From: Styela clava
Lineage: Eukaryota; Chordata; Ascidiacea; Stolidobranchia; Styelidae
Length of the DNA stretch: 64,000 bases
Assembly: GCF_964204865.1 (NCBI RefSeq)
Contig: NC_135261.1
Coordinates: 6,882,001 to 6,946,000 of the forward strand
Reading direction: 5' to 3'
The notes under the pieces were generated by a model. The model made no database searches. It was not told where the DNA came from and saw only the letters and a list, made by a program, of their open reading frames with translations. This document shows, piece by piece, positions 174 through 61,720 of the stretch (position 1 is its first letter; the number at the start of each line of letters is the position of its first letter). The position numbers and the translations under genes are program-made.

Positions 174-3100
174 AAAAATTCAGCGTTCGACAACAGATGA
201 AAGATGCTTTATTAAAGCTGGTTGAGAACAGACCTGAAGACCCACTGCTTTTTCTTTCCAATTTCTTTGATACTGTTTCTTCAGAAAACCGAGCTGACAG
301 GGTACGATTTAGTATAATTTTTATAATGAATAAAGTATAATAATTATAATGAATCTAGAATTTATTCAGGGTTCAGAGAAATATACACCCTAAACTGAAA
401 GTTATACTGTAAAAGTACAGTTGTAAAATGAAATTGTTAAATAGTATCTTTTAATATTATTTATCTGATTAAGCTATTTTATTCTTGCTATGATGATGCT
501 CTTTTTGGCACTGTCTGAATTATAAGTAACTTCAGAGGTTTTCTCTGAATGTTGCTTGATTCATTGATGACAGTCTGATATATGCGCTCACTAATCTGAA
601 TGCAAGATCATCTTCCTCTGTGAAATGAGAGTAGAATTATCATTTAAATTGAAATTCATTCAAAAATTCAATATGGTATAATAATGGTATCATATAACAT
701 CTGTATGAAAAATTCAATTTCAAATGTGTCAAATTCTGTGGATATTTATATTTGAAGCTTTAATAAATGTATTAACTCCAAGCTCATATACGATAAACTG
801 CTACTCCAGAAGTATGTGCACCAAGATGGCGGACACCGGAACGTCGTATGTGTACCAGGTTAGGGTTAGGCCATAATTTTATTCCAATTTTCCTTATTTT
901 AGTTCTATAACGGGTTCAGGGACTAGCCAAGTGACTCCCATAGTATTTGTACCTGAAATTATGGCCTAACCCTAACCTGGTGCACATACGACGTTCCAGT
1001 GTCCGCCATCTTGGTGCACATACGTCTGGAGCGCCGATAAACTATGTATGTTAAAATGATGAAAATAGGAAAAAACAAATTTGTAGTCTTAAAATTTTTT
1101 TTCTGATCATTTATTTTACCTGAATTCTGTCTATCTTGGTCACATGCTCTTTTTTTTAATTTTTTTTCTAGATTTCTCATGCTGCAAGAACGTTAAAACT
1201 GTCTCATCATTCGAGTCCTGCTTTCAATAACAACGTTATATTGGCATACGATATTCTTAGTGCACCTAAAAGTATGATTTTCCTTTATAGTATATTTGAT
1301 TTGTTAGCAAATTTTTTCTAAACATCAATTCTTTGCAAACAAATTCTTGCTATGATGATGCACTTTTTGGCACTGTCTGAATTATAAGTAACTTTGAAGG
1401 TTTTCTTTGAATGTTGCTTGATTCATTGATGACAGTCTGACATATGCGCTCACTAATCTGAATGCAAGATGAATTGATGTTTGATTTCATAACGAGTCGT
1501 TTGTTAGAAAAATTAGAGTGTAGATTAGAACAGGAATGGTCAAAATCGAAATGGTCAAATTTACTATACCAAATACATTCTGAAATTATAATTTTGAATA
1601 CAGAATAAAACGGGGCATGTTCCACAGAAAATTCATATATATACCATTTGAAATGAATAAAATTATATTTGATTATGCAGAATGTTCGAAATAACGTTAT
1701 TCAATATTTTCTTATTAAAGTATAAAAAGTAAAACTAATTTCATTTTTTATCTGGCTTTCTCATGTCACAGACTCAAGGTGACAAATTTCCAAATGGAAA
1801 TATACTAAAAAATATTTCTAAATCAGGAATTAAATATATCGAATATGATTGATTTCAAACGATTACATGCAGCCTCTACTTGGTGAGGACCAATTTGTAT
1901 AAATTTTGATTGGGCCTTTCTGGTTGATACATCAATTTTCCATACATCAGTTTTCCCAATCCAAAATTGATTTCTCCAGCAAAAAGGTTTATACATTCTT
2001 CTTTCCTTCAGACCCAAGTTCGAAGAAGCTTGCAAACAAACGTTCAGGAATGTCTGGAGCAATACATGAAGAATTTATCAAGTTTATTTGTTCCGATGTT
2101 CCTGATGAATTAAAAGAAAATCTTGTTGATAAAGTTTGTTGCAAGTGGAATGAAATGGTTCCATATGAAGTTTTCAAATACAGTGTTACTGTAGCTTATG
2201 TTTTGTTAGGTACGTGTACATTTTTTCATTTATTTTGCAAATTGTGGGATTTTTTGGATATTTATGTCTTGAATAGCAAGTGGCGTTTGTTGTTGTGCAA
2301 GTTTGATCCCAATTGGCAATTACCGTACTTTTTTAAATTTATTTTAAATTTTCTTATCCGGTAATACTTGAAGCATTTGTTTTTGTCATCATAAATCTAG
2401 ATATAGATAGTGAGATATGCAATAAATTGATGGATTTTTATGATGTTTGAAAGATATCTTGAAATCTTATTATCTACATCTGGGGTGTGCAAACTGCGGC
2501 CCGCGGGCCAAATATGGCCCACATAAAGAAAATTGTGCGCCCGCGGAGAAGTGCCAGCTAGCAAAATCCTGTTGCAAAATACACAATGTTATAAAAACTG
2601 TATTTCTCATTGAATTCGTTTACAGTCGGTGTGACAATCAATTTGAATAGCAGTTTTTTCTTTAGAAATTTATTCGTTTTAACTCGCATTTCTGCAAGGA
2701 CCCCTAGCAATGCCGTAAGATCAATAACAAAATGAAACGATTTTTCGTGCCTGCAACTACTAGAAAAGCTATCTTAAATAAAGGTGCCGACCCACGGATG
2801 CACTCATTTACTTTGTATCTAGCCTTACTGTGATGAAGATTGCACACCCCTGATCTACATTATTATTTTTCTCAATAAACAAATGACTCATTTATTTTCA
2901 ATTTTTTTTATTTCTCAACAAACAATATTTCACAGATTTTATTGAACTCTCTGAAGACTTGTTCAAAACCCTGAGTGGAAAAAATGAAATGGCCGACAGG
3001 TTTGTTATTATTTGAATTTTTTGAATTTTCAAATCAGATCATTTGTAAAAATATTTTCTTGCTATGATGATGCACTTTTTGGCACTGTCTGAATTATAAG

Positions 3101-4161
3101 TAACTTCAGAGGTTTTCTCTGAATGTTGCTTGATCTATTGATGACAGTCTGATATATGCGCTCACTAATCTGAATGCAAGATTTCCTTTACTTTTTGAAC
3201 AATTTTGTCTTAGTTTATTTTGCCAAAATTACCAAAGGAGTTTTATATTACCGGTATTTCCAAATTTCCATCCCAATCAAGCTTAAAGTTGATTCCTTAA
3301 TTTAGTTTCCATATTTCCAGATATTTATGTGATACTACTGTTGAAACGTTCAGTGAATCGTTGCTTCGAAGCAACAATAATTTTGTGAAATCTGATGACA
3401 ATTTTTCTCACGCAATGGAGGCAGGAAAGAAATTGAGACCCGATAATCTGGCCTCTGCTATGTTGCAGGTATCGACATTCGACATCAATATTATATCTGA
3501 ATAGTGAATTTACTAAAATTTATCTTTTCGTCTGATTTTAATTTTGTAAATTGCAAATTTTGCATTTGCATTAAGATTGCATTGCTTATGCACATGATTA
3601 ATAATAATTATATTACTTGAATAATAATACAACTACCAAAAACTTTTTAAAAACTTCAGCAAAGATTCTCCATTTTATTTCAGATTTTTAGGAGTATTCA
3701 ATTATTAAGTTGAAAATTGAAATTTATTCAAGTTTGCATTTCTTAATTTGAAATTATTCAAAGATGTCTTAATAATTCCTATAATGGTAATTATGAAAAT
3801 TTTACTCACCAAATCTTGGAATGTCAATTTTTAATACAATATGAATTGTATTATTATAATTTATCAGTAAATTTGCAAGAAAGAGGGAAAAGCTATTAAA
3901 CATATTTCGACATTCTCTTAATTTCCCTGATACCCTTTCTATTCTGATGAATAGTTTTAAGAGTTATGACGATTTGAAGTCTGTGCTTTTATCTTGTTCA
4001 CACTATAAACTTGTGAATTCATTTGCGGTTACTTGACTGACACAATTCTTTAATTTCAGGCGAAAGAAGATGAAGGGGATGCAAAAAATTTAATGGACGA
4101 ATCAGAATTTCTTCATTTAATGACAAATGTTTATCTTAGTAATGTCAAATGTTTAAAATAA
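174..4161 (+). CDS. TPGS1: Tubulin polyglutamylase complex subunit 1, 3' portion
   Basis: TPGS1 is a non-catalytic subunit of the neuronal/ciliary tubulin polyglutamylase complex, which adds glutamate side chains to tubulin. Exons: 174-301, 1172-1271, 2012-2209, 2936-2999, 3321-3468 and 4060-4161. All have AG acceptors and GT donors, and reading phases join without a break to the TAA at 4159-4161. Recognisable blocks are ALLKLVENRPEDPL in the first exon, SHHSSPAFNNNVILAYDILS in the second (family signature AHHS..AFNNN), YEVFKYSVTVAYVLL in the third and LRPDNLASAML followed by FLHLMTNVYLSNVK at the C-terminus. The first exon begins at an acceptor (cag ending at 173) with two bases completing a codon, so the start codon lies upstream of the window. 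An ATG at 143 is in frame but sits in the intron-like pyrimidine run before that acceptor. Introns 1, 2 and 4 each hold a box C/D snoRNA; intron 3 holds a hAT-type MITE. PIGG follows 708 bp downstream on the same strand. Confidence 0.9.
483..607 (+). ncRNA. Intronic box C/D snoRNA, copy 1 (TPGS1 intron 1)
   Basis: A 6-bp terminal stem (tcttgc 483-488 with gcaaga 602-607) brackets a C box ATGATGA at 490-496 and a D box CTGA at 596-599. Internal D' (CTGA 515-518) and C' (TTGATGA 564-570) boxes are present. Between D' and C' lies a 14-bp stem with one bulged base (524-537 with 543-557). Copies of about 125 nt occur in two other introns of the same gene in the same orientation. This is the classical arrangement of an intron-encoded snoRNA guiding rRNA 2'-O-methylation. 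The guide upstream of the D box, tatgcgctcactaat, is identical in all three copies. I do not recognise a named family. Confidence 0.82.
800..1035. mobile_element. Foldback MITE with 8-bp target duplication
   Basis: The two ends are long inverted repeats: gctactccagaagtatgtg at the left and the reverse complement of cacatacgtctggagcgcc at the right, continuing through motifs resembling accaagatggcggacaccgg. The element is flanked by a perfect 8-bp duplication GATAAACT (792-799 and 1036-1043). The inner arms contain ggttagggttagg and cctaaccctaacc. It lies in TPGS1 intron 1. This is the founding copy for the family annotated elsewhere in this window as 'foldback MITE'. The 8-bp duplication is typical of hAT-type transposition; no transposase is encoded. 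Confidence 0.85.
1345..1469 (+). ncRNA. Intronic box C/D snoRNA, copy 2 (TPGS1 intron 2)
   Basis: Same architecture as copy 1: terminal stem tcttgc 1345-1350 with gcaaga 1464-1469, C box ATGATGA 1352-1358, D' CTGA 1377-1380, D CTGA 1458-1461. Its internal stem differs from the other copies (tttgaag 1393-1399 with ctttgaa 1405-1411, against ttcagag with ctctgaa), yet every pair is kept: one G-C is replaced by A-U and two further pairs become G-U wobbles. It starts 73 nt downstream of the exon donor at 1272. Confidence 0.82.
2480..2852. mobile_element. hAT-type MITE (GGGGTGTGCAA family)
   Basis: Termini ctggggtgtgcaaac and the inverse of gattgcacacccctg match at 13 of 15 positions and are bounded by a perfect 8-bp duplication ATCTACAT (2472-2479 and 2853-2860). 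The interior has the G/C-rich gcggcccgcgggcc segment common to several repeats here. It sits in TPGS1 intron 3, between exons ending at 2209 and starting at 2936. No transposase coding is visible. Confidence 0.88.
3057..3181 (+). ncRNA. Intronic box C/D snoRNA, copy 3 (TPGS1 intron 4)
   Basis: Third copy: terminal stem tcttgc 3057-3062 with gcaaga 3176-3181, C box ATGATGA 3064-3070, final D box CTGA 3170-3173. The internal stem is identical to copy 1 and the guide region is unchanged. The host intron is only 321 nt (3000-3320), and the snoRNA lies 58 nt after the donor. It differs from copy 1 mainly by the inversion tctatt for ttcatt before C' and at one base after the C box. Confidence 0.82.
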
Positions 4162-10800: not shown

Positions 10801-13800
10801 GAAATTCAATGGGAAAACTCATAACACCTTTAATACAGGTAACTGATAGAATAAAGGAATTTTGCTGTACTTACAATGGCTATATCAATGGATGGATCAA
10901 TATCAATGGATTGGGAAATGGAAGTTGGAAAGCGGAAATCACTTTTTCTCCAACTACTGTAAAATTTTTATCCATTATGAATCTATATCCTACAAGATTT
11001 TTTTCAAATCATTTCAGGGGACACCTGTTAATTTTTGAAAGACTCTTGACTTTGTGGATTCGCAATTTCGCCTCCAATGAAAAATGTCAAACCCCGCCTC
11101 ATCTGCCCTGGAAAATGTATTCATGATTTTACAAACACTATTAATTTGCTGCCATCTGCAATTTTATTTTTTATTTTCCCAGAGACTAAGTCCTGCAGAT
11201 CAGCTTCATGTGTTAGAATACAACTCGCATCATTTACTGACATTAGCTGGGAAGACTGGAACTCTTGATAAAGAACAGTTTGGATTTGCAAACCCTCTCC
11301 AACTATATGGGTAAAATATTAGATATTCACCAAGATCACTAAGATATTCACACTTCCAGGGGTAAATTTTGCGAACAGGTAAGTATGTGACCGAATGTCA
11401 CCAATAACGATATTGCATATTGAAACGTTGTGTTTTGCATAAGACAGCGAGCGGCTCCCAAACTTTTCGTTCGTGCGGCGATAAATTATCATGGAAAAAA
11501 CTCACGGCACACCTACACGAAAAAAAATGCTGCCTCTGAATAAAACTCAATTTTGTGATTGTCAGTGTGTACTTTTATGAATTTTAAAGTTTGGAATCAC
11601 GAGGCCTAAAAGAATAATGACAAAAGGTCAACTCTTCTTTCTCATATATGTCTGATATTCCTTTGAAATACTGAAAAATTCACTCATTTTCGCTAAACTC
11701 GGTCCAGAAGATAAATAAACTGCAGCTCGTGAAATTGCAACAATTAGTTTCTACCTCTATTGTTACATAACAATGGAGGCAGACACTGTGTAACAGAAAG
11801 TAAACGACATAGAATGGTAAAACGAATTTATTTTGTTTCCTATACACATCATTTAAAATAGAAACAAAACATTTATGGTAAATACAATAAATATTTTACT
11901 TTGGAATATGATGCAATGTCAATCATGTTTTACTACTCACCCAATTACCACTTTTAGTGAAGGACTTCTCTCTCATGCTACTTATCTCCAACATCAAGAT
12001 ATTGCCGACAATAAATTTGAAGATGCAAAAAAATCCTATGTTTCATCACAGAAGATCATATCTGATGAATTGATGTATAATATTGCATCGTATAATTATA
12101 TGTACATGGGGATTGGAATGGTTTTAACATGGCTGGTGAGTTTGATAACATTTAATATGGTTATTGGTAACTGTTCTTCAATTTGGTATTGAATTTGAAA
12201 ACGGTTTTGGGGATAAACCAAAGCATAATGGAAGCAGTCATTTATGGTATTTGAAAAAATATGGATCTGAAGGCCGTTTGTCAAGCACCTGATTGCTGAA
12301 AAGATCAGCAGACAACTATGTTCCAATGCTTCATAAAAAGCATTCCCATGAATTAAAATAAAACAGTCAAATATCAATTGAAGTATTGACTCCAATAGCC
12401 CCAATAAAAAATGTAAAAAAAAAAGAAATTTTAGCAGATTTGGCCATGTATCTGTAATGAAAATATGAAATTGATTGATCTGTTAGTTGAGGAGAAAACA
12501 GATTTTTTCTCAACGAGAACAAAAAAAAAACATTGCAAAACATCCACTTTGCCTCTAATGTCAGTTGATTGAAGTAATATAGCATTTCTCCGAATTTTCA
12601 GGGTTATTTTGCTGTAGCAGTCTCTTGGGGCCAAATTGTGTTAATTCATAAAGCTCCAACGAACACTGACGAGCCTCGAGACGCACCCTCCTCACCTGTA
12701 ACCTGGGGTGTACTTGCAACGTTGGGTACTATAGTTCATGGAATGAGTCTCTTATCAAGCAGTTTCCTTGAGGAAGAACATCAAACTTGGTATTTTTTGA
12801 CAACAACGTTTCTGGCAATCCTGTTTTGTAGTGTTATTATGGAAATTGTTGGCAAAAAACTTGGAATGGCTGAGACTATTCAGAAAGGATTTTTTTCTAG
12901 AAGTAAGTTAGAATTGCATTGTTATATATATTTTGCTTTAAAGAGGATAGATGAATAAGTGTAGAAATTTTGTTTTCACAAAATGGTGACAGTTACGGGT
13001 GATTCAACGAGTCTTCCTGCATACTGACACAAACGTATTTTTGTGTCGTTCTGTGTGGCCAAGATGTCTGCCTGCAAACCCAATTGATAAAACAATATTT
13101 GTGATCTGTTTTTATTTTTAAATAATTTTAATTAAAATTTGGACGTTTTTGAAATTGGAAGTACATCATTTTGTTTGCTAATTTTGTACTTTTGAGTAAT
13201 TCATGGCAATTTGCAACAAAATTAAATATATGTAACTATAAGCATAACATTGGATCTATTATTTATAAACAAGTCGGCTTTTGCTGACTTTGACTTAACT
13301 TACATTAAAATACCTTTAGTGCACATTTGCCACATTGGAAACTTGCCTTGAATTCACAATTTTATATTTTAGAAAAATCTTCACCAACCCGCAAAGTTCG
13401 AGGAAAAGAAGAGTCGATGGAACTTCTACATCGAGCTAAATCAGATGAATCTGTCGACTCAACTTGGGATTTTGTTGAGTTAGAAACAAACACCGAGGAG
13501 GAGTTTACTTTCGACAAAACAAAGAAGGGTCCTCAAAATGTGAGGATATTTTCATTTTTTATCAAGCTAGGATTAATGTACAAGCATAATTTTTGAGAAA
13601 TATCAAGTCCAGGCATCTGCAATGAATGATTAACTTTTTATCTATTCTTTCGTACCTATATGAAAACGGAATTATAAATAATTGACATAAAATTATGTAT
13701 GTTTCCAATTGAGTGATTAATTCCACTCATTTGAGGCTTTCATGTTTTTTTGGTTGGACTTCTTGCTCTCCAGTTTTTCAACTGGTCTACTTATTCATCC

Positions 13801-16800
13801 TTTTAGGATTCAGACATTCACATAGTTGGAGTTTTAATAGCAAGTCTTATTGCACATCGAGTACTTCGAGCTTGGAATAGAACGGGCATACAGTATGTTG
13901 ATTTACCAGATATTGGTAAGTGTGCTACCAGATTTCTGAAGAATATTGATAATTGTGCATAAATTACTGTTTAAATATTCCCCAAGCTCTTCAAGAGTGA
14001 GACCATATTGTTTGGATCTATTATATATCATCCTCTCGTGTTTTACATATAATTCCTCGTTGACTTCTTTACTAATGTATAGGGTATCCATAAAGAAACT
14101 TTTTCAAAATTGCAAAGGGAATTTATTGATACCATATATTATTTTGGCCCTCTCAGATGTAATAAATGATGTAAAAGTACCATTACTGATTAAAAAACAA
14201 ACCTGTTAAAAGATATTGAGAACTGACTTCATAACAAATTGAAAGTGTAAAGGGACTTTATGGACACCCTGTAAATAATGCCTTTACCATATCAGACCCT
14301 AATGATAACATTATTCTGTATAGATATTTGAAACGCTGTCAAAATATATCGTTCATATTATATACACACAGTAACCATTAGTCAGTAAGCAGGAATCACT
14401 ACAGTAAGAATAGTCCATTTCGCAATGTGAAAAATTATGGTGAATCAGCATTCATTTTGCTTATTAAAATTCGACTTCATTACCGTGTTGTTGTATTCCA
14501 GGTGATTGGCTCAACAGGCCTGATAACAGCCCAATACTGGGGCTGACCCACTTAATCAGTCTTATCAGTATTGCCATTCTACTAGAGATGATAACGAATG
14601 GAAAAGATATCTGGAGAAGGGGTGTGGTGTGGGTTGGACTCGGTTGTGTGTTCTGGTACAGAAGCGCTGTGATGCGGGCATTGAGGGGTGAAGAAATATC
14701 AAATGGAGACCATGCTATGTGGGTAACTTAGTGTTCAGATTTTGTCTTCAAAAGATACCAGTATTTGGTAAAAGTGGAAATAATATTGTTATTGTTCACC
14801 ACCTCACGCAGGGCGATTCCGAATCGAAAAGATTCTAGTCTTTCCCATGAATAGTAGCTCCTTATGCATTTTAGATATCAGTACTTATACAGGCTTTGTT
14901 TAGAGCGAAAAGCATGAATGAGCGTCGCATAACAAAAAATGGTACTGAATGGTTACGTATACTTTAGTGTAGTATACTACACCGTAGGCAAGAAAATATA
15001 AATTTCAACCGCACTTTTGTAATTTGAATTCCAACCTCTCGACTTTAAAAAAGGTTCTATTCAAGCATCCGCTGTTATCTAACGATGTGTAAGGGAGTTA
15101 GAAAGAACCGGAATCTTTCATAGTCGTCATAGCTTGTTCAATTTACTGCACCCTGGGTGAGGTAGTGGATATGGGATTTCAACACTCCCCTGGGGGGTAA
15201 TGCGATGCCAACAAGTTTTTTTTTTCAGTTTATGATAAAATATTCCTGGTTTTCTTCATTGCTTGTTTTTCCCTGAATGTTTCAATATATAAACATAGCA
15301 GGCGTAACGCAGGCAAAGATTATTTGAAATGCTTCTTGTTATCTCAGTGGTGATTCTCTGCTGGGAGAAGCAGTGTTTCATACATGATATAATAAATTTT
15401 GTTGAATTATTTTCCTGTCTAATTAAGAATGTAAATGGACATGGCTAATAATTAAAGCTCGTTGCGCTGCATTTCGTATTATGGGTTCGAATCCTGAGCT
15501 TGATAATCATGTGTGATAGGATGGATTGTTACTCACTTTCTCTGTCACAGTTGCAAGGCCCACGTAACTGTTTCATTGCCATCCAATACCATGCGTGATG
15601 CGTCTGAAATGATTACCTGGTGTTTTATTCGTATATCCGACATGGACTCGTACTAGACAAAAAACAGTGGTTCACTATATCATGACTTTTTTTTTTGAGA
15701 TTTGAGATTTTATCATCACAGATTCTTAAAACACTTTGGCTTCGTATAGTTTATATCAGTATAATGACTTGGGAGTATTCGTAGCCGGAATTGTGAGAGA
15801 ACTCCGTTGAGTGTGACTTACACCTAAGAATTATATGATGTAGTACGGTGAATAATTATTTTGTTAAACCTGGTATATTTCCTGTTTTCAGTGGCTTGTT
15901 ACCGGCTTTGCTGTCTTACCTATCAGTTGTGTTAGTTCTTGGAAGAGGAATATTTTTGAAATCAAGAAAGATATCTGGTGAGTGGAGAAATTTTTATGAT
16001 ATGTTTAATAATTAGAAGAAGCTCTATTTAGAACTCGGCTTATACTACTAATTCTTTGATATTGAATCCAAATCTTCATTGATTTACTCATAAGCAAAAG
16101 ACTGGGATTGTCAAATTGGAATAATATACAGTGATACCTTTACTAGTCGAACATAATTCATTCATGATTGGTGTTTGAGTAGTGAAACTTTTTTGCTAGA
16201 GAAAACGATGGTAATTATCTTTATACAATCTTACGCTTTCCAAAATATTCATGACTTTTTATTTTTCAAAAACATGGAAATGATAGACTTTGCCATGCAA
16301 TACTGTAACGCAAAATCATACACTCGAACAGCATTCTCGTATTTCACAGTAATTTCTTTTTCCAACAAATCATCAGTCGAACACCAATCCTGAACGATCG
16401 CGTTTGAAAACCGAGGTATCACTGTATATGCTTTTATGTTCTATATCAGGAGTGTGCAACCTATAATACAGAAGAGCCATATACAAATAACTGGGTAAAA
16501 CCGAAGGCCGCACCTTTATTTGACATAGGCTCTCTCTGGTGTTGCGAGCACAAAAATTTTGATTATTGATCTTATGACGTAGATTGGTCGATTCGCCCGA
16601 GCTAGCTGTTAGGGCATTGTAACGTCATGAACATAGATGAAAAAAAAAATTGACTCAGTTGCAGTTACAGGCTCGGAATTACTCGCGCGTACCAGATTAA
16701 ACTAAATTGAAAACTCATTTCGCGGGCCTCACAATTTTTCCTTGTGGGCGCATTTTGCTTGCGAGCCACAGGTTGCATGCCTCTGTTCTATATTATTGCC

Positions 16801-29012: not shown

Positions 29013-29231
29013 ACAGCAGGTACTACTGTAGTATGCGAACCAAGATGGCGGACACCGGAACGTAGTGCGTGTACCAGGTTAGGGTTAGGCCGTAATTTCA
29101 GTTACAAATACTACGGGAGTCACTTGGATAGAACTAAAATAAGGACAATTGGAATAAAATTATGGCGCAACCCTAACCTGGTACACATACTACGTTCCGA
29201 TGACCGCCATCTTGGTTTGCATACTACAGGT
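29013..29231. mobile_element. Foldback MITE downstream of the PLAC8-like gene
   Basis: It starts ggtactactgtagtatgcg and ends with the inverse pattern (cgccatcttggtttgcatac then tacaggtgtacc). Both arms carry accaagatggcggacaccgg-type sequence and gttagggttagg or ccctaacctgg. It is almost a twin of the 800-1035 element. No exact target duplication is visible. Confidence 0.75.
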
Positions 29232-29385
29232 GTACCCAATTTTATAATATTTATCTGGAGCATATCATTTTAGAAAAACACGTTTAGCATAAGCAATCCA
29301 TCATAGAAACTACGAAACTAATATTTTTAACATAAAATGATAGCTGAGCTTTAAAGAAATGTCATGAACTTGATGAAGGCATCAT

Positions 29386-33603: not shown

Positions 33604-33810
33604 ACAGAAGTATGTGTACCAATATGGCGGTAACTAATTTTGATCACCTATTTTACATCAAATTGTGTTAAGGGACTGACACCTATGGGCAGAGAATATA
33701 TTCACTTGGTTAACACAGGAAATCCCCGACTCGTAATAAGACTTATAAGGAAAATCGGAATAAAACTATGGCCTAACCCTAACCTGGTACACATACTTCG
33801 AGAATACCCG
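33604..33810. mobile_element. Foldback MITE, long variant
   Basis: It starts near gctacagaagtatgtgtacc and ends ctggtacacatacttcgag. The interior has gggactgacacctatgggc and ggcctaaccctaacctgg, shared with 10483-10687 and 56966-57169. The target duplication is not clear. Confidence 0.7.
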
Positions 33811-34650: not shown

Positions 34651-37600
34651 GGACAAAAATATTCTGACAAGCTCTTGTTCTGACACGTATGTGAGGCGAT
34701 TGGACGTCATTTCATCCAAAATACATCTAAATGTTTAGTCTAGTATTTGACTGAAGAGAAATAACGGTTATTTGAGACAACAGTAAATCTTTTTTCAATT
34801 GAGAAGCCCATCAGCTTTATTAATAAGCTTGTGGACGTTAGATCAAGATAAAGCGGCTCATCGCCATTACTTTTACTTGAAAGTAAACTACTCAGAGTAC
34901 ATATGTGTTTCGTTTGCAAGTCCCTTGCAATGGTGGTATGTTTAATTGACACGAAATGGACATACGGATCATTTTGTTATTATTATGTTTCTTCTTACAG
35001 TTGTTGTCAAAGAACCTTCCTTTTTTACTACTAGACCGAGTGCTTTACAATTTTCAGTGGTTAAAGTTTGTTGTTGTCGCTTGAAGGATATAACTTTTAT
35101 TTATTTCAAATTTCTGTGGACTCTATGAGAATCTTCTTTGTGTGTGGTGGTGTCGTCAAAATCAAAAGTTGAACACGTTTTTCACGATTACGCGATCGCG
35201 ATCGTTGCTATTTGGTAGCCAATCGAAGTGGTAAAGACTGTCGTACCGTACCCGTACTAATTCATTTTGGCCGCCGTGTCCATATATTCGAACATTGCTA
35301 TCTTGCTATAACAATTATGTATGGATGATCATTTATATTCTTTGGTTTCTGCCACATTGTTGCGATTTCGTTGTTTCTAATCAGCTACTTTGCATATTTT
35401 GGACTCCTTAATTTTGAACAAGGACATAATAATGTCTAGACTCTAGAGAATTCATAACAAATACCGTTAGAGAGCCAATTAGTCTACATCGTGAAACTCT
35501 AAAAATTGTCTAATTCGTTTCTTTCAGTCTATGTGTACGAAATATATGTTATAAACTTTCAAAAAATGTAGGCATTTTTACTCAAAATGTTACCAAAACG
35601 CCGTAACAATTGTGTCGTCTGTAAATTAATGCTGCGATGAACACGTGCATATTAATGCCAGCTTTATTGATACCACCATTTCAATGGCCATTTTATTGAC
35701 TTTTTGACTATAGAAAATCACCATGACCATACTGTAGTAAACTGAAAGATTAAATAAGTTCACAAAAACTTGTATAACATGTGTTAACTAGTGTTTACAA
35801 ATGCCTTCATAATACATCTATTCTTCTTGATTGACAAAAAAATTAATTATTAAACAATCATATTTATACCGATTTCGAATTACGACGCCACCACACGGCC
35901 TTTTAAAAGGTCGACCTGGGCAAGCGACCGCTCGAGATTCGGGAAACGGTGGACAGTAACCGTATTCCCAAACTTTTTTCCTCAATCCCTATTTTTGTAA
36001 AATCTAAAATTATAGATATTCGCGACCTCACAACAAAAAGTTTCGTTCAGCAGTCCCAGGAATCAGTAAACGTATATCGTCATCCTGGGGAATATTTCAA
36101 CCCTGCCGTCGTCATTATTACTGTGTTGTTATTCTCGCATCCGACGTGTCGCTGTTTTATTTCTTACGTGTCGTCATTCTATCTTTCGAGTTTTCTGGCG
36201 CCCCTCTAAGCTTTGGGAGATGTTTAGGATGGCATTTCATATTGTAGCGTTTTCACTTGTGATTTTGGTTAGCAATTAGGTAGTTTCGTCCATAGCGTTT
36301 TTTTTTAACTCTATTTCGAATTGTTCGATATAACATATGATATTTGCATGTCTACAGCTCTTTATTATCAATCTGAAAATACAACCAAATACTTAAATCA
36401 AATCAACAGAACAGAAAGGACACAATGAAAATAACGAACGACAAGCATCACGAAGCAAGAAAAATAATATATACAAGAAAAATCCTGAAATCTGAGGACA
36501 GCCCTTGAAATCCGGTACATTCCAGCTAACCTCTGATCAGCCTACTGACTAGCATTAAAATATCTAAACGAGAATGGTCCAAAGTTGCTAGGTTGGCGGG
36601 CGCAATAACTTTTGAGGATGTCTCGCAGGCCGCAGTCGGAGAAAACCCAGAAGTCATCAAAACATCGCGTGTTTACTCACTTTAAATATATTTAGGAATC
36701 AGAGTTTACCACTCTGATTAGTTTTTTAAGGAAGTTATATAAAGCCTTCAGTTATTTTGAAATTGCTTCCCGAGTAATATCGTGGTATTTCCGGTATCTT
36801 TTCTCGTGTTTGGTTTTGTAATGTCGCTTAAAGTTATGTTATTTCGTGACAGATATTACTTGAAAACACACCAGACAGTGTGGTTTAACGTTGTTGTGGG
36901 TAAGGAAATACCTTTCCTCTCAGTTTACCTCGATCACTTTTTTTCTACACTCACTGTATGAAGAATTGTCATATTTGAAAAAATGTATTACGTGTAGCGT
37001 GAGCAGGCCTAGTGCTGCCGTCAAAGAACAACCAAGTCTGTTTAAGTTCGGACCCAGTTATAAAAAAAAAATGGATCGCGCGGCGCTAAATCAACAGTGC
37101 GGTTCGTGACTGCGGTCGCATGGCCAACGCTTGAAAATAGAGAAGTATTTTGGCTAAAATAAAGGCACAAAACGTCTCTTCAAATGAGGAGTTACTTGAC
37201 GCAAGCTCATCTCATCGGCTTGGTCTTGTCTGCACAAAACAATTCATTCTCCTTGTACCGATCACAGGACGTCATTCACATATTGGCACCGTCTTGACGT
37301 TTATAGATACAACATTGAAATTCCGTTATTTTAACAAACATCAATTCCGACATCGGGATTTGGAAAAGAACCATTTCCAGTTGAAATAGTATGAACCCCG
37401 GTTAATTAATTGATGCATGAAGACAATAGAAAGTGTCGCGGACTATAGCGTTCGCGTTTATATTGTTTGTATATTTAACAGATAACATTACTAAAGAACT
37501 GAAAACACGACCGGCCGCCAGCGCAGCGACTGGAGAAAAGAGATCGAAAGACAGTTTTTTTCTCTCACGTGTAGTTAGTGGTCAGAGTCCAGATCCGACG

Positions 37601-41433: not shown

Positions 41434-44400
41434 ATGAAGATATTGTTGCTATCTCTTTTGTTTTGTCAGTTCGTATATGGATTCGCTCGAAAAGAGTTCA
41501 ATTCGATGGAATTCAAGGCAATGTTTGACAAAAAGGTATAAGTTGAAATAACAAAGTTTGAAATAATTACAGAGTTTCATCGTGCACGAATCGATACCAA
41601 AAAATTCTAGTTTTCTACTAATTTTCTGTTTGAAAATCTATAGACATTTTCATGTGTCTCAAAAATGTCGTGCCCCGTTCTCCAATTGGTCCATTTTGTC
41701 TTGTTTCCATTTTTGACTAGCTCCAATTTTACACTTATTGGTTTCCAAAATTATTCAGCTTCAACTTTCCATTTATAAATAAATACCTTAACATATTTAC
41801 TATAAAATTTTAAATTGCTTTGTTAAAATTTCAATCATATTTTTTCAGGTGAACGAAGAAGAAATCAATAAGTTTACTTTTCCGGAAGAGGATGGATATG
41901 TTGCCGGAAAACACAATTCTTGTGGCAGACTCAAGTAATGAAAATTTAATCATTTATTTTTAAACAACCTTTAATTTGAATCACTTATATGGAGCGTATT
42001 GCTTTAAACTGGCGCACTCTTATTAGAATTTTATATTCTACTGACTACAAAGTTCATTAACTTATGAAGAGTATATTTAATCAATTTCATCTGAATAATT
42101 GTATTGGGATTGTATATGAAAGGTAGCTGAACGTATCTTGACAAGACAAAATCAAATCAACATTAATAAACGGAAAAATTCGTTCCTGTATTGTGTGCGT
42201 TGTTTCCACAAATCAACGAACAAATTGATTATTGCACCGCCATTTTGTTTTGTGTATTGATAACTACTATTATGGCGTTTATACACCACGTTCTTTTTTA
42301 GGCTTTTCTCGGGCCCTGAGGACAGATGCTTCGCAAGTAAAGGCGATACATCAGGATCTCCAAACGCTTGTGATGACCAAAAATGCACACAGAAATCTGT
42401 TTACGGCTCAACCAAATGCAGATCCCACGTCAGGCTACGCCAGCCTTACAGACACACTGGTTTAGAGTGCACGTAAGTACATGATATCGTTATGAAAATA
42501 AAAAATTAATATTTTTAGAAGTAAGCAATAGTATTAAGTAGCGATGTAAGTTTAGGATATTTTGTTTCCGAATCAGAATGTTTTGATTCGAATAATTCCG
42601 AATCTGATTCTATTTAGTGCAATTCCATATTGTTATTAATTTTATTCAAATTTGGAATGCCTACAAGCTAAATTATCATTAAATGATATTAATTCAATGG
42701 AAAACATACAAGGTTGAGAGAAACAATACATTCAATGGATGCATCAAATACCCAAGTTTTAAAATTACATTCTAGTAGTAGGATTTTCATTTCTTTCCTT
42801 GAGGAGTGGAATGCCGATAAGACCATGTTACAGTCCATGTCGGGCATGGGATTAGGTCACTAGTTATTTGTTTTGGATGCATAGACCTGATTTCCGACCG
42901 CCGATTGAATCACTCTATGAGGGCGAGGAGTCCAGCAATCGTTTTGTACAGAATTTTCAACGGGAATCGAACCTGCTGATCCTGTAGGGTGACCAGAAGT
43001 GCAGTGACAAGTGTGTTTCAATGTTATCTATGCTCGATGCACCAACCGCCAATCCACAAGTATACTCAGACATGAATGACAATTAATTACGATTTACCAG
43101 TGAAAATTACCCAATTCAACAAAATGCATGAGAACCTACAGCTAAAAAAATTCCATGAATGAATCTTGGCAGCATATAAAAAAAAAACGAAAGCTATCGT
43201 AATAACAGTATAGAAAAAGCAAGTCCATCCCTCTTCTATTGGGAATATTTTGTAACATTGTTTACTCTATACCGTTTATTATATTTAGTGTAGGCTAATC
43301 TGCCGAAAACTATAAAATTAATGTTCAAAGAGCAATAATTCATTGTTAAATTCATCACACACTGATGTGATTTTTACGTTCAGGTTTCACCAGAAAGCTT
43401 GTGAAAACCAGCATGATAATCGTGAAATGTATCCGGAGCCGGAAGAAGAAACTAAGGAGCGACACATGTATCCAGCCCCGGAGCCTGGCGATGCAAAAAG
43501 CATTGGTCCGAGACCCTGCCTCTGTCAAACCATTTGGTGCATGAATGACATATACACGATTTACGAGAAGGACGGTGATTGTTACAAGGGCAATGTTACT
43601 ATCAAGGTTAGTAAGCTGTGTAGTGTACTTCACATATATTGTGTGATGACTTCAAATGAGATAAAAAAAAAATATCTTTTACAACAATTTAACATAATGT
43701 TTGAACGTACATTTTAATATTAAATTAAATTGTGTAAACGAGAGAGAACTGCACAAATTCTTATGTGTGTGAAGATTGCAGGACTCTTCGTCGTCGTGAG
43801 GGGGTGTACGTAATCGCTGGTCGGTTGTGGATTCCTCCGCCATCAAGTCTATGAATCTAAAACAAATAACTGGCGCCATATAATTACACTGCGTTGTCAT
43901 TTCGCCCTACATCCGAATAAATATAAAAATCCAAACATATCCTATCCAAATGAAGACACAAAACAGAACTGCAGTGCCGGCATTTTACTTACACTAAAAC
44001 CCATTATCTTTTCGTGCGAAAAATTTCAAATCAGAATCACAAATCAACGTTTTACGTAATTGGGACCTGCAGATATATGTGCACCAAGATGGCGCACAAC
44101 CTGAACATAGTATGTGTACCAGGTTAGGGTTCATGTTGTGCGCCATCTTGGTGCACATACTTCGGGAGCGCCCTGAAATGGTGATTAAGAATTACCGAAG
44201 ACTTTACAATAAATTCATCAAGAACAAAAAGTAATCTGATGGTAAGAAAGATCGTGATATTTATATCGTAAATGAAAGTTCAGTCAGTCAGTAATCAGTA
44301 ATTTATTTTTTCACCATTCTAAAGCACACAATGTGAATACACAATACAAGAAATAGGAAATATGGTACTTTAGGGTGAAGGGAGGCGCGAGACACCAAGA

Positions 44401-47109: not shown

Positions 47110-47335
47110 CTATGTATACAATCTGAGGTACTACCGTAGTATGTGTACCAGGTTAGGGCTATGCCATAATTCCATTCCATTTTTCTTGTTTTAGTTCTAT
47201 TACGAGTTCGGGGACTGTCTGTGTAAGCAAGTGAATATACGCCCTGCTCATAGGTTTTAGTACCTTTACACAACTTGAGATAAAGTAGGCGAACAAAATT
47301 AGTTACCTCAATATTGGTACACATACTTCTGGAAC
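47110..47335. mobile_element. Foldback MITE, long variant, reverse orientation
   Basis: It starts ggtactaccgtagtatgtg and ends ggtacacatacttctggaa. The interior is the inverse of the 33604-33810 copy (aacttgagataaagtaggcg and gaacaaaattagttacctc). The target duplication is uncertain. Confidence 0.7.
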
Positions 47336-48908: not shown

Positions 48909-49142
<234 letters not shown>

Positions 49143-49240
49143 CGATACACAGAGAGAACGACGGATAATAAGGGTTTCCTAGAGCGAGATCCAATATTTT
49201 GAACCAACAAACACACTCGGAATAATGTATTATACTAGGA

Positions 49241-51708: not shown

Positions 51709-52768
51709 TACTAGGACAAGCGTGATCAACCAATACCAGGTTATTTAATCCAGTTGATGTTCATTTGATGTTGGTCCATGTTTAATCTAAGTCCGCAGCT
51801 AACGGAGGGGTATGTATTTCGTATTCATATTTGTGACTTTAAAACCAATTCTGCTCAATCACTGACCGCCAATCGCTACTATAAACCCCCGTAAAAACTT
51901 GAACAAAATGAAGCATATATATGTGTCTGATTGCACATCTCAGTTGTCATGAAAAAGAATACCATCATGGGATTAAATAGGAATAATTGGACCTGTTGAA
52001 CAATGGTTTATTTCTCTCTAGTTCGATGCTCAAATATATAGACACAACGAAGTAATCTGTCACAGTAGACTACCGCCACAAGGTGCGCAAATTTTTTAGT
52101 TTGATGGCGGCATCGCACACAGAAAAACAAATCTCATGGAATCCACAGAATTTTTTTTAAATAAATAAAAGTAATATTTTTCTAGAGAAAAATAAATCTG
52201 TAACAACTGAAAATTTTAAATCAATTTGTTCGTGGTTAATGTGAAAACCGATTTCGTCATAACAAGAAAAATACTAGGAAATGAACAACAACAACAAGTG
52301 AATAAAAAAAAAGATCTGAATGTACATTTCGTGCCCATAATCAATTCCAGCCTATGTCAGTTGCTTAAAACTTGACTTGTGTGACCCTGCTTCTCGACGT
52401 AGTCATACGCATTGTTTTTAGGTCCCATAAGGATTGAACACATAAAATTACCTTTTGATAATCGTTGATTGAAGCAAAACAATTTAATAACGTTTATGAT
52501 AAAATAAGTGGTGATTAAAATGAATTATGCCCCGTTTAGTAAACACAGTTTGAATTGCATCGTATATCGATTTGATAAATCGATAAAGTTTTTAGGTTGA
52601 GTATTCTGTATGAGCAGAGATTGATACACTGACTAGAACTGAACATGAAATTCTTAGGAGTTGTGGTTTACTCGTTTTCTGAAGCTTTACTATATCTAGT
52701 GTCTCTCGACGACAGCAATTTTATTAAAAAGGGAACTCTTGAGTTTCATTTTAAAATATTCGAAACCA

Positions 52769-53491
52769 ATGGCGATGAACCGCGGGAACGATACATTGAC
52801 TTCGTCTAATGCTGAGCTCATTCGAGCATATGAAGAAGAGGACTTGGCCAAGATTTATGCAAAATATGGATTTCCATATTGTTCAACGGTACCAAAAGAA
52901 ACTATGCAGTTTATCCGAGAAAAAAGACTCCCCGATACTGGAAATGGGAGATATGAGCGAATGTGGATGTGGAACATTATCAACACAAATATTTTCTCCG
53001 TATTTTCAATCAATTTTGGGTGTCGATATCAGCGAAGCCAAAATTAGTCAAGCGAAGATATTGAATATGTCCGAAAACATCACTTTTGAGTTATCCACAG
53101 CCACAAATTTCCAGTAGAAGACAATAGCATTGATCTGATCACGTGTGCGACATCCATTCATTTTCTTGATACGAAGAAATTTGAAAAAGAATGTCAGAGA
53201 GTTTTAAAACCTGGTGGATGCTGTGCTGCGTATTTGATTAATCTGCGAAGTGCGAGGCTTATCAACCACTACGAAAACGATCCTGCAACGTGCAACATAT
53301 CGTTGAGGCCTTTGATTGCACAACATTTTGTCGATATCAAAGTTCATCCTTGCAATTTCGACGCAAATGATGGAAATCGACCCATTATCATCGAATACAA
53401 AATCCAACTAGACAATGGCGTATTCATGAATACATTCGTATTCATGAAGGATTGTAAGGACAATCATATTGAGTTGATTGAGTTACGGTAA
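52769..53491 (+). pseudogene. Frame-broken SAM-dependent methyltransferase, intronless
   Basis: A class I methyltransferase (methyltransferase-11 type, small-molecule O/N-methylating kind) can be followed across two reading-frame breaks. Segment 1 (52769 to about 52945) has the pre-domain YAKYGFPYC. Segment 2 (about 52950-53107) has the SAM-binding region CGCGTLSTQIFSPYF and GVDISEAKISQAK, but the glycine-rich loop lacks a residue compared with GCGTGxST. Segment 3 (from about 53108) has EDNSIDLITCATSIHFLD and VLKPGGCCA, then the C-terminal lid to the stop at 53491. The frame changes near 52945 and again near 53107. No introns interrupt it in a genome where all other genes are split, so it is probably a decayed retrocopy; sequencing indels could also explain the breaks. 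Confidence 0.75.
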
Positions 53492-55023: not shown

Positions 55024-57445
55024 ATGTGCTCTGGTCTTGAATGGACAGTAGATGGCTTTGACTTTCGAATTCGTGAGTTGGATTCTGATGACATTTCAGA
55101 AGTACGTGGAATGGTCGTCGGCTGTTTGTATAAGATACTGTTTATGGCATTTAAAGGATTATTCGTGAAAAATTGGCGAACACAGGTAACTTTATTGAGA
55201 AAAATTAATTAATTCTATTATTATCCTGATGAATTGTTGGTGATTTCGTAGTATGTGCACCAAGATGTCGCACAACCTGATCATACTATGTGTACCAGAT
55301 TAGGGTTCAGGCTGTGCGTCATCTTGGTGCACATACTTCGCGAGTGCCGAATTGTTTAATATCCAACTATTTAAAAAGGGAAAGTTTTATACCACATTTT
55401 TCAATAATGCTGTTTTACTTTGGGAGGCCAAAAAGTCCCCGCAATACTTGTTCAATTCCTAAAAATTTATGCTGTTTCGTTTTAGAGGTGGTTGCATAAT
55501 ATCATCTGCAACCATAACGTTATTATTGTGCCGAATGCTTGGTTGATAAAATTTACAGCATAGAAAAACTGCAATTAGGCAAACAGTTTTACTAAAATCC
55601 TAACATGACTGAACTATATTCAGATTGTTCTGTCAGGGTTGACCGCGTTGCTTCTCATTAACATCGGATACGACGCGCAGTATATCACAATTTTTGTCCT
55701 TTTTCAAACATGTCTGTTGGGTTTTACAGGTGAGTTTTTTCCCAAATTTAGGAGGCAAGTGTATCGCTGGTTATAATAAAATTTTACAGGGTTGTTTACT
55801 AAACCCGTCGTCATTTAGTTTTTGCCTGTATCTTTCTAGTATTTCAATTCTCCACCTAAACCATACGGTAGTTGATTTTATGAAATAAACAAAAACTAAT
55901 GACTGATATTTACCTGTTTGTTTTTAGTCCAATATAATATTTACCGACGTTACAAACTGTATTGTTCTTTAATGCATTCTCTCGTGATAGTTGTATTTTT
56001 TTAAAATAATCCGCACAGTAGTCTCAAGGTACTCAGAAGTTGAGCCTCATTTAGTTACTTTTTTTCATACTAACCTGCATCAGCTAGGTGTCGCCGCTCG
56101 AAGACCTCTATGAGTCCCTCGCGCCTCCGGTCACACAATTAACACGATCAGTATATTTTATTTGTTGTAACAGTTTTTCTTTATGCTTGTTTCTTATGAT
56201 GACAAATAAAAGATCGATTGGTTGATTGATACGATTAGTTAATACATTCAAGAACGTATGACCAATTCAACGTCAACAACTTTAGGACGTAAAAAAAAAT
56301 ATTCCATTGTGCTTACGGTATAATTATGATTAGATGCAGTCTCGTTTTACTGTTTCTTTGCACCGGAAATAACAACATTTAAAAAAGAAATTGTCAACGC
56401 AGACAAGACTTACCTGAAATTTTGGATTTCTGAGGTTTTCGAAGATGGTGAATGGAAGAAAGTAGGAACAGCGGCTCTGCATGAACCATATCAACTAGAT
56501 AAGTGCGAATTTCAAACTGGAGAAATAACTTCTTTAAAAGTAAGTGCAATGTATGTATATAGAAAATGCCAAACACTTTTAAATAAGTGTTTAATAACAA
56601 AACGAAATAACATTCCAGATTTAAAGAATATTCGAGATGATTCTTCCTACATCCTTTCACTATAATCGAAATGCAAATCTTCCAAATTAAAATATTTGGT
56701 TTATGTAACGATCAGTCAAGCTTTGATTAAATTCTTGAGTAATGGGTCGGCATTTCTACAGTACATTTCTAAACATGTATGACATACACTGTAAATAATA
56801 TCGCTGATGTATTTCATCACAAATATCATGAACAATATCACTTGAAACCGGAAGTTCGCTTACCGATAATTCTGTGTTAAGTCTAACGTGTGTGCAGTCT
56901 TTAAAATTGATGGAGTGGAGAGCTATAATATGGTATATATAATATATATTAAAAAAAAATTTGTAGGCGCATCAAAAGTATGTGTACCAATATGGAGGTG
57001 ACAAATTTGGTTTGGCTACTTTACATCAAGTTGTGTAAAGGGACTGAAACCTATTTCAGTATATTCACTTGGCTAACACAGTATCCGAACCCGTATTTGA
57101 ACTAAAATAGGGAAAATCGGAATAAATTTATTGTACAACACAACCTGGTACACCTACTATGGGAGTACCAATTTGTACAATACCAAATTTATGATTTTAC
57201 AGTGTGTATCAGTATCGCGCGACTGGAGATCCAAGAAGATGGGAACGATGCTGCTGAAGTACGCACTCAGTCAAGCAACTTTGATGAATTATAAAGCTAT
57301 TATTCTTCGTGTTATCGAGGAGCAGCCAACGGCCGTTTCTATGTATAAAAAGAATGGATTTGAAATACTGAAGGTGAAAAACACGGCATGTCTACCTCTA
57401 CTCTATGGGATAAATGTCTACGTCATGGCTAGAAACCTTGGGTAA
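55024..57445 (+). CDS. NAT8-like membrane-bound N-acetyltransferase (GNAT)
   Basis: Four exons (55024-55185, 55624-55729, 56340-56539, 57203-57445) give 236 residues with continuous phase, close to NAT8 proteins (about 227 aa). The N-terminus FRIRELDSDDISEVRGMVV is the start of the GNAT fold. Residues about 55-97 form the hydrophobic insertion typical of NAT8 (IVLSGLTALLLINIG, FVLFQTCLLGF). The fold resumes with KFWISEV..GEWKKVGTAAL and the acetyl-CoA-binding motif A, VSRDWRSKKMGTMLLKYAL (pattern R..K.G..L), then VSMYKKNGFEI near the end. Family members acetylate cysteine S-conjugates or protein lysines at the ER/Golgi; the substrate here is unknown. A MITE ends 33 bp before exon 4. Exon 3's start at 56340 was chosen because it is the acceptor that keeps phase with exon 2. 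Confidence 0.85.
55240..55348. mobile_element. Foldback MITE, short variant, in NAT8-like intron 1
   Basis: It starts ggtgatttcgtagtatgtg and ends cacatacttcgcgagtgcc. Inverted arms are flanked by a perfect 8-bp duplication GAATTGTT (55232-55239 and 55349-55356). The interior reads gtgtaccagattagggttca. Confidence 0.88.
56966..57169. mobile_element. Foldback MITE, long variant, in NAT8-like intron 3
   Basis: It starts ggcgcatcaaaagtatgtg and ends cacctactatgggagtacc, with a perfect 8-bp duplication AATTTGTA (56958-56965 and 57170-57177). The interior resembles 10483-10687 and 33604-33810. The exon 4 acceptor is at 57202. Confidence 0.88.
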
Positions 57446-58169: not shown

Positions 58170-61100
58170 TGTAATTAAGTGAGAAAGAAATAGGTGTGAT
58201 AGCGAGCGAATTCAATCACCCTCTGCCTTCTGTAACGGAAATGTACTTCATGTACGTTCGCGCACGCAAGAAACTTTACATAAGAAGTGCTGTAGTTGTA
58301 ACGTCGTAAATCCACGGATGTTATTGGACACGTTAGTGGACCTATGGATCGTTTCAATATTATGTTGTTGGACACGTAGTGGACATAACGATCGTTTCCA
58401 TATTATGTTGTTGTTGTTGTTGTTCTTGTTCTTTGACACGTTTTTAAAAAGTCGCTTTTCTCTTCGAATACTGGACCAATTGCTTTGAAATTCTCAGTGG
58501 TTAAAGATAAAAATTTTCTCCAGAAGGCTATTACTTTTTTTTTCGCTATGACGTCATCAAAATTATGTGACTCTACGTGTCCATATATTTGAGCATTGCA
58601 CTCTTGTTGTTCTTTGACATTATTTGGACACCTAGTGGAAAATTTAAAAATTCGCTTTGTCTCTGATTACTGGACTAATTTCTTTGAAATTTTTAGTGGT
58701 CAAAGATGGAATTTTTCTCCAGAAGGCTATTACTTTTATTTATTTCAAATATTTCTGTTAGCTCTGTGAGATTTGCTTTTGTTTGCTATGACGTCACCGA
58801 ACGTTCTGCGGACGCATATGCTGGCACTCCTCTTCATGTTCTTTCGATCACGTGCCATCGAACGTCGGTGGTTCGTAACGGAATCCTTGCTTTGCTAAGA
58901 TTTGAGGAATGGTGAATAGCGAATAGCGCCGTACTTGGTGTTACGTATATTACAGCAGTGTCTCGGATCGTTGGTATTACTACAGTTGTGAGTCGGACCA
59001 TCTTGCAATTTCAATTCACGCTGTCACAAGACAGTAACTGCTAAAGACAGGGCAGTTCCAGTACCGTAACACAGCACAGTGACACTGGACTAACTCGTAT
59101 CTGTCTGGTAAAAGCGGGGCTTGTATTTTAAATTTTGTTCCAATAATGAAGAAGGAAATGAAACGGATTACTTAGTATTTCAATTCATGTTGCAATTGAA
59201 TATAGAAAATAGATTCATTTACACGGGACATGTGAAGTGGGAGGCAGACAACTCGACTACAGACGGACAACTCGACTACAGACAGGCCTGGTGAGTTGTC
59301 TGTGTAGTCGAATTGTCCATCAGCCCTAAACGTTTATGACAGTCACTGTACCGAAACTTGTACCCTGATTCAGGTGGTGTTAAGTTGACGCATGTTATTT
59401 TGTAACGTTTTTATGTGAAATGTTCGACTGTGGTTCGGTACCTGATCCGGTAATACGGTAAATAATTGACTCATATCACGAGATATTTCAATTGATGTTT
59501 CAATATATTTGAGAATAATGGAACATTGTCACAGGACGTAAAATATCTATGACAGTCCCTGTACCGTCACAGTACTCCGATACAGGTACTGGTAAGTCAC
59601 CGCATATGATTTTTGGGGAATTGTTGTGCGTGTCCATATATTTGAGCATTGCTCTCTTGTCATTAATTATATATTAGGAAAATGCACATTTATTGAAGAT
59701 CACAATGATCATGATTTTTTGATTATAATGCTTTGATTCATGGCGATAACGCAAGATAGAAAGGTCAATCCCTGACATATAATACTATATATATACTCTA
59801 AATATGTATTTTTAGATTTGCAAACGTCTTGCTGCATTAACATTCGTCCTTGTTGTTGTTACTAAAACGAAATCGTTGCACCAATCGAATATAAATTTAC
59901 AGTAGCCTACCTAATAACGGCTAAAGCCGCTAAATGACACTTTTTATTCCAATGCTCGTCCGCCAATATTGCAGCAAATCAAACTCAGTGTTCTAAAGCC
60001 TCTTTGTAACGTTACCGATACAAGACCATCTTAGTCCTACCGCTGCCTAATGAATTGCTGCGGTGGTGGCACCTGATTTGCCATTTGCATTCCGATCTTT
60101 TCATGAGGGGGTTTCCGACTTTAGTGTAGGTCGCCTGTGTTACCGGTAGGCTACTTCGGTTAGTCACTGAATCGTCGTGTTCATATATTGGAACCTTGTT
60201 AGACATGAAGTGTATATATGGACCCTCTTGTTATTATGTTGTTGTTGTTGTTGTTAGTCATTCTCTTCTCTTTATCGTTTTAAAAAATCTTCCTTCCCAT
60301 TTACTGGAACAATTGCTTTGACGTTCTCAGTGGTTAACCCGCTTATCTCTCTCCACCTGGGTCCACGGTAGCCTACTGTAACGGATTGCATACCCGTACT
60401 ACTTCGTGCCCATATATTTGAGCATCGCTCTCTTTTCCAGGTGAAATCTTTTGTAAACAATCACCACATTCGATCATCATCCAAAAAGTTTCGTTGTTTT
60501 TTTTGAGATTTCTAGGGGCCAAAGTACTCTTCAATACATTAGAATAAAATTTTGGCACAATTTGACTTCTGAGATTGAAAAATAGATAAAAAATTTCAAA
60601 ATCCAGTTACGCAATAACATCTTTATGTTCATAATACACATTGCCCATCTATTTCAAACTTGTTTATGGATCCATTGTTTCATTAAGATGTATGTTACTT
60701 ACCTATTTATAACGCTACTGTAAAAACCACTTACTCTATAGTTGAAAAACATAATTCTGAAATTAAAAAAACTTGTTGATAATATTTCAATTTATTTGAA
60801 TGTCCAAGCTTAAGCAGTCAGAACAACATTGCACCAAATTAATATTTAAGCTAAGTCCTATGCGAATAGCCTCGAAGAGTCATATTGAATTCATGGTGTT
60901 TTTGTTTTATAACAATTTTCAAGTTTATCTGTATATTTGATCTGCATATAGTAATGTCGGTTGATAACATTTAGCCAACAGTAGACCAATTTTCCATCTT
61001 TCGAAACGGCATTCTGCATTCACACTTGCAAGGTGTCTGTAATGTAGAAAACATAAGAGATTATTGGACACGAAGTGGACATAACGATCGTTTCAATATT

Positions 61101-61720
61101 ATGTTGTTGTTGTTGTTGTTCTTGTTCTTTGACACGTTTTTAAAAAGTCGCTTTTCTCTTCGAATACTGGACCAATTGCTTTGAAATTTTCAGTGGTTAA
61201 AGATTAATTTTTTCGCTAGAAGGCTATTACTTTTATTTATTTCAAAATTTTGCGTGAATTCTATGAAATTTGATATTTCGTTAAGAGATTATTGGACACG
61301 AAGTGGACATAACGATCGTTTCAATATTATGTTGTTGTTGTTGTTCTTGTTCTTTGACACGTTTTTAAAAAGTCGCTTTTCTCTTCGAATACTGGACCAA
61401 TTGCTTTGGAATTTTCAGTGGTTAAAGATTAATTTTTTCGCTAGAAGGCTATTACTTTTATTTATTTCAAAATTTTGCGTGAATTCTATGAAATTTGATA
61501 TTTTGTCTAAAATTTTGCTGTATTATTTTTTATCCATGGGAACACGGATTTTAGTCAGTGTCATGGCTGGCTGTACGTCTTGATTCTGCAAAATTCTTGC
61601 TACTGGAAATTCAGAACTTTTTCGAGGGTACCGGTAGCGTCAAATGTACCGGTAAGGACTGATTCGCTCTGGTCTAACGTGTCCATATATTTGTGCGTAG
61701 CTCTCTTGTATTATATTTAA
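58170..61720 (+). repeat. Cluster of (GTT)n-bearing dispersed repeats
   Basis: Units contain ggacacgaagtggacataac, gatcgtttcaatattatg, a (gtt)n run, ctttgacacgtttttaaaaa, ggaccaattgctttg and gaaggctattacttttattt. They end downstream in gtgtccatatatttgagcat followed by tgctctcttgt. Two units are tandem at about 61060-61280 and 61290-61510. Others start near 58320, 58610 and 60236. End motifs occur at about 58580, 59630, 60170, 60405 and 61680, and singly at 35278, 39230, 52025 (inverted) and 62475 (inverted). A related stretch of gtaccgg/cagtaccg-type sequence lies at 59030-59620 and inverted at 62530-62680. No coding capacity is visible. Confidence 0.7.

Follow-up and report, generated by a model that had tools for sequence, protein, structure and literature searches.

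Three copies of a probable intronic box C/D snoRNA in TPGS1 of Styela clava, with a candidate target in 28S helix 71

The TPGS1 locus and its repeated intronic unit

We examined a 64-kb stretch of Styela clava DNA, referred to below as the window, in which all positions are numbered. Its first gene model comprises six exons with GT and AG borders that join into one open frame with a terminal stop. The product matches the Pfam model TPGS1_C (PF24480, E 1e-47), as expected for tubulin polyglutamylase complex subunit 1, while a RIIa match at the start of the product falls under that model's cut-off. The Pfam match bears out the first-pass annotation, which had named the gene TPGS1. Because the model's exon 1 is preceded by an acceptor-like CAG, exons upstream of the window are possible, and the intron numbers used here are valid within the window only.

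174–4161, + strand: TPGS1, modeled from splice sites and the open frame
174–301, 1172–1271, 2012–2209, 2936–2999, 3321–3468 and 4060–4161, + strand: the six TPGS1 exons in the window
482–608, + strand: putative box C/D snoRNA, copy 1, in intron 1 of TPGS1 (numbered within the window)
1344–1470, + strand: putative box C/D snoRNA, copy 2, in intron 2 of TPGS1 (same numbering)
3056–3182, + strand: putative box C/D snoRNA, copy 3, in intron 4 of TPGS1 (same numbering)

Among the direct repeats in the first 6 kb of the window there is one strong three-copy family, and its members are the three intronic units listed above. The copies of about 125 nt that had been noticed at the outset in introns 1, 2 and 4 measure 127 nt, and, as had also been reported, all three share one orientation, that of the TPGS1 strand. 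Pairwise comparison shows 6, 3 and 7 differences over the 127 positions, with no indels, for an identity of 94–98%. Since the flanks of the copies are only 15–42% identical (20 or 50 nt, on both sides), the conserved unit is RNA-sized; it spans both arms of a terminal stem and all that lies between them, with one further T at either end. A blastn-short search of both strands of the 64 kb found no fourth copy, the remaining matches being 10–15 nt long. The distance from each copy to the 3' splice site is 563, 541 and 138 nt, a variation that counts against a snoRNA reading.

Other repeats are also present in the window. A foldback element in intron 1 (804–1031) matches many other places in the window, on the + and the - strand alike, a hAT-like repeat of intron 3 matches one other place, and a GT-rich repeat, reminiscent of ascidian genomes, lies near 61 kb.

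Box anatomy, folding and constraint

The elements of the three copies, with positions for copies 1, 2 and 3 in that order, are as follows:

490–496, 1352–1358 and 3064–3070, + strand: C box AUGAUGA (unit positions 9–15)
515–518, 1377–1380 and 3089–3092, + strand: D' box CUGA (unit positions 34–37)
524–557, 1386–1419 and 3098–3131, + strand: internal hairpin of 14 bp with one bulged U
564–570, 1426–1432 and 3138–3144, + strand: C' box UUGAUGA (unit positions 83–89)
583–595, 1445–1457 and 3157–3169, + strand: putative D guide, 13 nt, invariant in all three copies
596–599, 1458–1461 and 3170–3173, + strand: D box CUGA (unit positions 115–118)

Every copy thus has a C box of the form RUGAUGA near its 5' end, a D box CUGA near its 3' end and internal C' and D' boxes, at offsets that are identical in all three. 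Beside C and D lies the terminal stem, UCUUGC/GCAAGA, with six Watson-Crick pairs in each copy. The internal hairpin pairs unit positions 43–56 with 62–76, again in 3/3 copies, so that the boxes, terminal stem and 14-bp internal stem described in the first-pass annotation are all present in each of the three. A further inner stem joins positions 29–33, just before D', to positions 89–93, which comprise the final base of C' and the four that follow; together with the pair C34-G88 it amounts to 6 bp in all three copies. This stem would mask the D' guide, making the inner unit a closed arm. The location of the copies, in TPGS1 introns 1, 2 and 4 within the window and on the host strand, is that usual for such RNAs in vertebrates. 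Folded as free RNA, on stretches shifted by one base, the copies have z-scores of -4.26, -3.36 and -4.50 against 200 shuffles each, with the qualification that these folds include C-box pairs that would be absent from a snoRNP.

A box C/D descriptor that asks for a C box, a D box and five or more Watson-Crick pairs in the terminal stem has three sites on the + strand of the 64-kb window and none on the - strand. These sites are exactly the three copies, each with inner D' and C' boxes. With the inner boxes included, the descriptor was not matched in any of 40 Markov shuffles of one strand; with the inner boxes waived, it was matched 0.225 times per shuffle. None of the eight variable columns falls in the boxes, the terminal stem or the two 13-nt guides, which together occupy 60 columns (P 0.005, or P 0.04 when neighboring changes are merged into five events).

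In the hairpin of copy 2, four substitutions fall in three pairs (C-G to U.G, A-U to G.U and G-C to A-U), and every pair is kept. The first-pass annotation had counted four preserved stem changes and read them as the mark of selection on RNA structure. The survival of all pairs, the change of G-C to A-U and the two G-U wobbles were indeed seen, while its "one replacement" corresponds to no separate pair. The argument drawn from these changes was overstated: all pairs survive four randomly chosen transitions in 12% of trials and four random substitutions of any type in 0.5%, and in a covariation control with the three sequences 167 of 500 shuffles were equally good, which is not significant. 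We therefore rejected covariation as proof of structure from three sequences, and we regard the pair-preserving changes as suggestive only of selection on the RNA.

The D guide and a candidate site in 28S rRNA

In box C/D snoRNAs, the methylated base is set by position 5 upstream of box D, known as the +5 rule. Counting from box D, positions 1–8 of the D guide can pair with AUUAGUGA in 28S rRNA; an unpaired C follows, and the next six bases pair with GCGCAU. The resulting duplex with helix 71 has 8+6 bp and one bulged C, and under the +5 rule the tentatively predicted methylation site is the G of AUUAGUGACGCGCAU, equivalent to G3783 of human 28S. A bulged base in a guide duplex is atypical, and we hold the target tentative because of it. 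Fourteen pairs with a single interruption arose in 4/3000 and 0/300 controls, which set shuffled guides against random 6-kb sequences and so drew on random sequence rather than real rRNA. Scored as a contiguous match, the 28S site reaches 8, a value equaled or bettered in 163/300 controls and thus expected by chance. A competing 8-bp match of guide positions 2–9 lies at UUUAGUGAGG in human 18S. The 18S and most of the 28S in this guide search were hand-entered sequence, and part of 28S was covered. For the D' element, an 11-bp match to 28S with three G.U pairs was rejected as being at chance level (115/300 controls), and the element does not pair at the SNORD10 site of helix 71.

The helix 71 segment was first spotted in hand-entered 28S, and contigs were then retrieved with a pattern containing it. 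The segment was read in 5/5 retrieved contigs, and because the retrieval pattern contained it, this is no independent test and shows only that such a 28S exists. Three of the five contigs come from an Escarpia laminata symbiont assembly. In contigs L001, L004 and L005 the recognized part of 28S is 76–77 nt at the contig end; in L003 the start of the segment also lies 1714 nt from the contig's end, and L002 begins within the segment. We take the 28S junction in these contigs to resemble R2 insertions. A search of the five contigs with Rfam gave nothing at threshold, viral contigs held no match to the 28S string and none to the snoRNA string, and a 79-nt stretch of the 28S had no match in plasmids and phages.

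The predicted base was placed relative to human 28S sites given in a figure legend of PMC10657414, namely A3764, G3771, C3787, U3797, A3804, A3809 and C3820. All seven meet the right letter in 4/4 anchor-bearing contigs, which makes the predicted base G3783. G3783 is absent from the human sites in that legend, and its chicken equivalent, 19 positions after A3274, is absent from Table 1 of PMC2653536. PMC12288042 gives the SNORD10 target as 28S C3808, in helix 71 at bridge B3. This C3808 appears to be C3787 in the numbering used here, since the PMC12288042 numbers for SNORD15 and SNORD17 are likewise higher by 21.

Known families, competing readings and significance

A covariance-model search of Rfam, proposed in the first-pass annotation as a check on its reading, recovered no family: with Rfam 15 there were no matches at gathering score in the whole window. 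A relaxed search gave seven hits, and the sole box C/D family among them at E up to 10 was SNORD53/SNORD92 (RF00325), a weak match at 485–529 with 16.7 bits and E 8.6, where the gathering score is 46. We take the others as chance. Three miRNA-family hits at 839–996 fall in the foldback repeat and are far under their gathering scores, SNORA22 at 1188–1314 reaches 20.8 of 80 bits and overlaps exon 2, and the hits to rli22 and MIR7991 are weak.

Families of box C/D snoRNAs spread over several introns of one gene are familiar from other animals. Table 1 of PMC2653536 lists, for chicken, U14 in introns 5, 6 and 8 of HSPA8, HBII-108 in introns 5, 7 and 9 of GNL3, and U15 in introns 4, 5 and 6 of RPS3, and the accompanying text ascribes nearly all chicken snoRNA paralogues to intragenic duplication. 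PMC8178906 describes the same pattern as usual in human. The copies in TPGS1 resemble the chicken families in this arrangement; they differ in having no Rfam family and in a host that the PMC2653536 table does not contain. By itself the host sets them apart only slightly, because non-translation hosts are not rare in that table. A full-text literature search with the gene name showed no TPGS1-hosted snoRNA among the matches listed, where the two papers containing both words do not, from their titles, deal with snoRNA genes; this is in keeping with the earlier remark that no such cluster was known.

We consider it probable, at roughly 0.8, that the copies are intron-encoded box C/D snoRNA genes that still function or did so until recently, duplicated within their host, with 28S helix 71 as a candidate target. 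The box anatomy, the terminal stem, the RNA-sized extent of similarity, the host strand, the intronic location and the lack of any other copy in the window support this assignment, and with it the first-pass annotation's reading of the copies as intronic box C/D paralogues. The opposing view that these are inactive pseudogenes whose parent snoRNA lies at another locus sits poorly with boxes, terminal stem and guides that are unchanged in all three copies, and with the retention of every pair of the three helices; we judge it very improbable. Retroposition of a snoRNA-derived short interspersed element, with most copies inert, would also confine identity to the RNA unit, as expected when a mature RNA is retroposed. 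A mobile element of this kind is nonetheless unlikely, given that the 64 kb contain no further copies on either strand, in contrast to the foldback element of intron 1 with its many other matches, and that all three lie in one gene in one orientation. Inspected by eye, the flanks have no A-rich tail, and they lack a target-site duplication, the longest words common to the 30-nt flanks being 4, 4 and 5 nt.

What the RNAs would act on is a separate question. An orphan snoRNA could act in cis on the splicing or expression of TPGS1 rather than on rRNA; the retention of three copies in a single transcript would suit such a role, and one is shown for SNORD2 in EIF4A2 by PMC10324135. Against the TPGS1 pre-mRNA in the window, however, 142/200 and 114/200 shuffled guides paired at least as well as the real ones (139/200 and 113/200 with the copies masked), so we rejected cis pairing of the guides and think a cis role highly unlikely. 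With neither guide better than its shuffles on TPGS1, and with helix 71 as a candidate, the target probably belongs to rRNA, where helix 71 is the best, though uncertain, site for the D guide.

The family might also be orthologous to a known animal snoRNA but too diverged for Rfam to recognize, for instance a SNORD10-like RNA acting on helix 71, which we treat as a minor possibility. Both would pair around the same segment of helix 71, and the human methylated C3787 (the SNORD10 target C3808) lies centrally in the predicted duplex, going by the legend and text cited above (PMC10657414, PMC12288042). However, the C3787 equivalent is unpaired after guide position 8 rather than placed at position 5 before box D or D', the spacing from box D points instead to a G that lies four nucleotides 5' of it, and no Rfam model matches the copies. 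This comparison with SNORD10 is one of target sites. We entertain only tentatively, as a doubtful proposition, that the copies form a lineage-specific TPGS1-hosted family methylating this G of helix 71, at bridge B3 and four nucleotides from C3787, at a site absent from the human legend and chicken table compared, and that the inner C'/D' unit is a stem-closed structural arm and not a second guide.

Intronic snoRNAs are trimmed by exonucleases from the debranched intron, trimming stopping at the assembled snoRNP. In the case of the TPGS1 copies, the RNA would be trimmed in this way from the debranched TPGS1 intron, with the exonucleases halting at a snoRNP that has formed on the C/D kink-turn and the terminal stem. 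The copies are probably expressed and probably act as rRNA methylation guides. The element upstream of box D would guide 2'-O-methylation by pairing with helix 71 of 28S, and the +5 rule would place the modification on the G that corresponds to human G3783. A guide role for the D' element is improbable, as the inner 6-bp stem would close off the inner kink-turn against the 14-bp hairpin. We infer that the three copies arose by duplication within TPGS1.

The kind and arrangement of these copies are ordinary, paralogues in several introns being a well-documented pattern. What the locus adds is a probable snoRNA family that Rfam 15 does not recognize at threshold. In other respects the result amounts to ordinary annotation, in a genome where snoRNAs have probably been surveyed too little. 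Should the helix 71 prediction prove true, the family would mark a methylation site at the subunit interface that lies outside the human legend and chicken table with which it was compared.

Repeats in the TPGS1 introns

Two repetitive elements lie in TPGS1 introns, here numbered among those inside the window:

804-1031, intron 1: foldback element with arms of 76 nt that are 96% complementary
2484-2855, intron 3: non-autonomous element, which we take to be hAT-like, with ends GGGGTGTGCAAACTGCGG and TTGCACACCCC

Matches related to the foldback element are spread over the two strands of the window; they include 29031-29234, 33745-33796, 44067-44172, 47135-47216 and 55250-55349. The intron 3 element has a single distant match in the window, at 16445-16574.

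Other repeats and probable neighbouring coding sequence

Further features of the window are as follows:

48909-49157: tetranucleotide repeat, about 62 copies of ACAG in an array
61054-61503: tandem repeat, two copies of a 225-bp unit
12578-12958: ORF, Pfam PIGO_PIGG membrane region (E 4e-08)
53090-53491: ORF, Pfam methyltransferase domain (E 5e-09)

Diverged matches to the 225-bp unit occur at 35029-35128, 52128-52342, 58365-58542, 58643-58775 and 60196-60337. The ACAG array probably accounts for the long open frames that both strands show at 48.8-49.3 kb. The two ORFs probably represent exons of neighbouring genes.

Animal-type 28S in a symbiont assembly

Three contigs of the Escarpia laminata bacterial symbiont assembly, retrieved by a 28S string pattern (L001, L003 and L005), carry animal-type 28S rRNA, presumably from the site that R2 elements use. 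It therefore seems that rDNA of the host, with R2-like insertions, has been filed as bacterial in this assembly.
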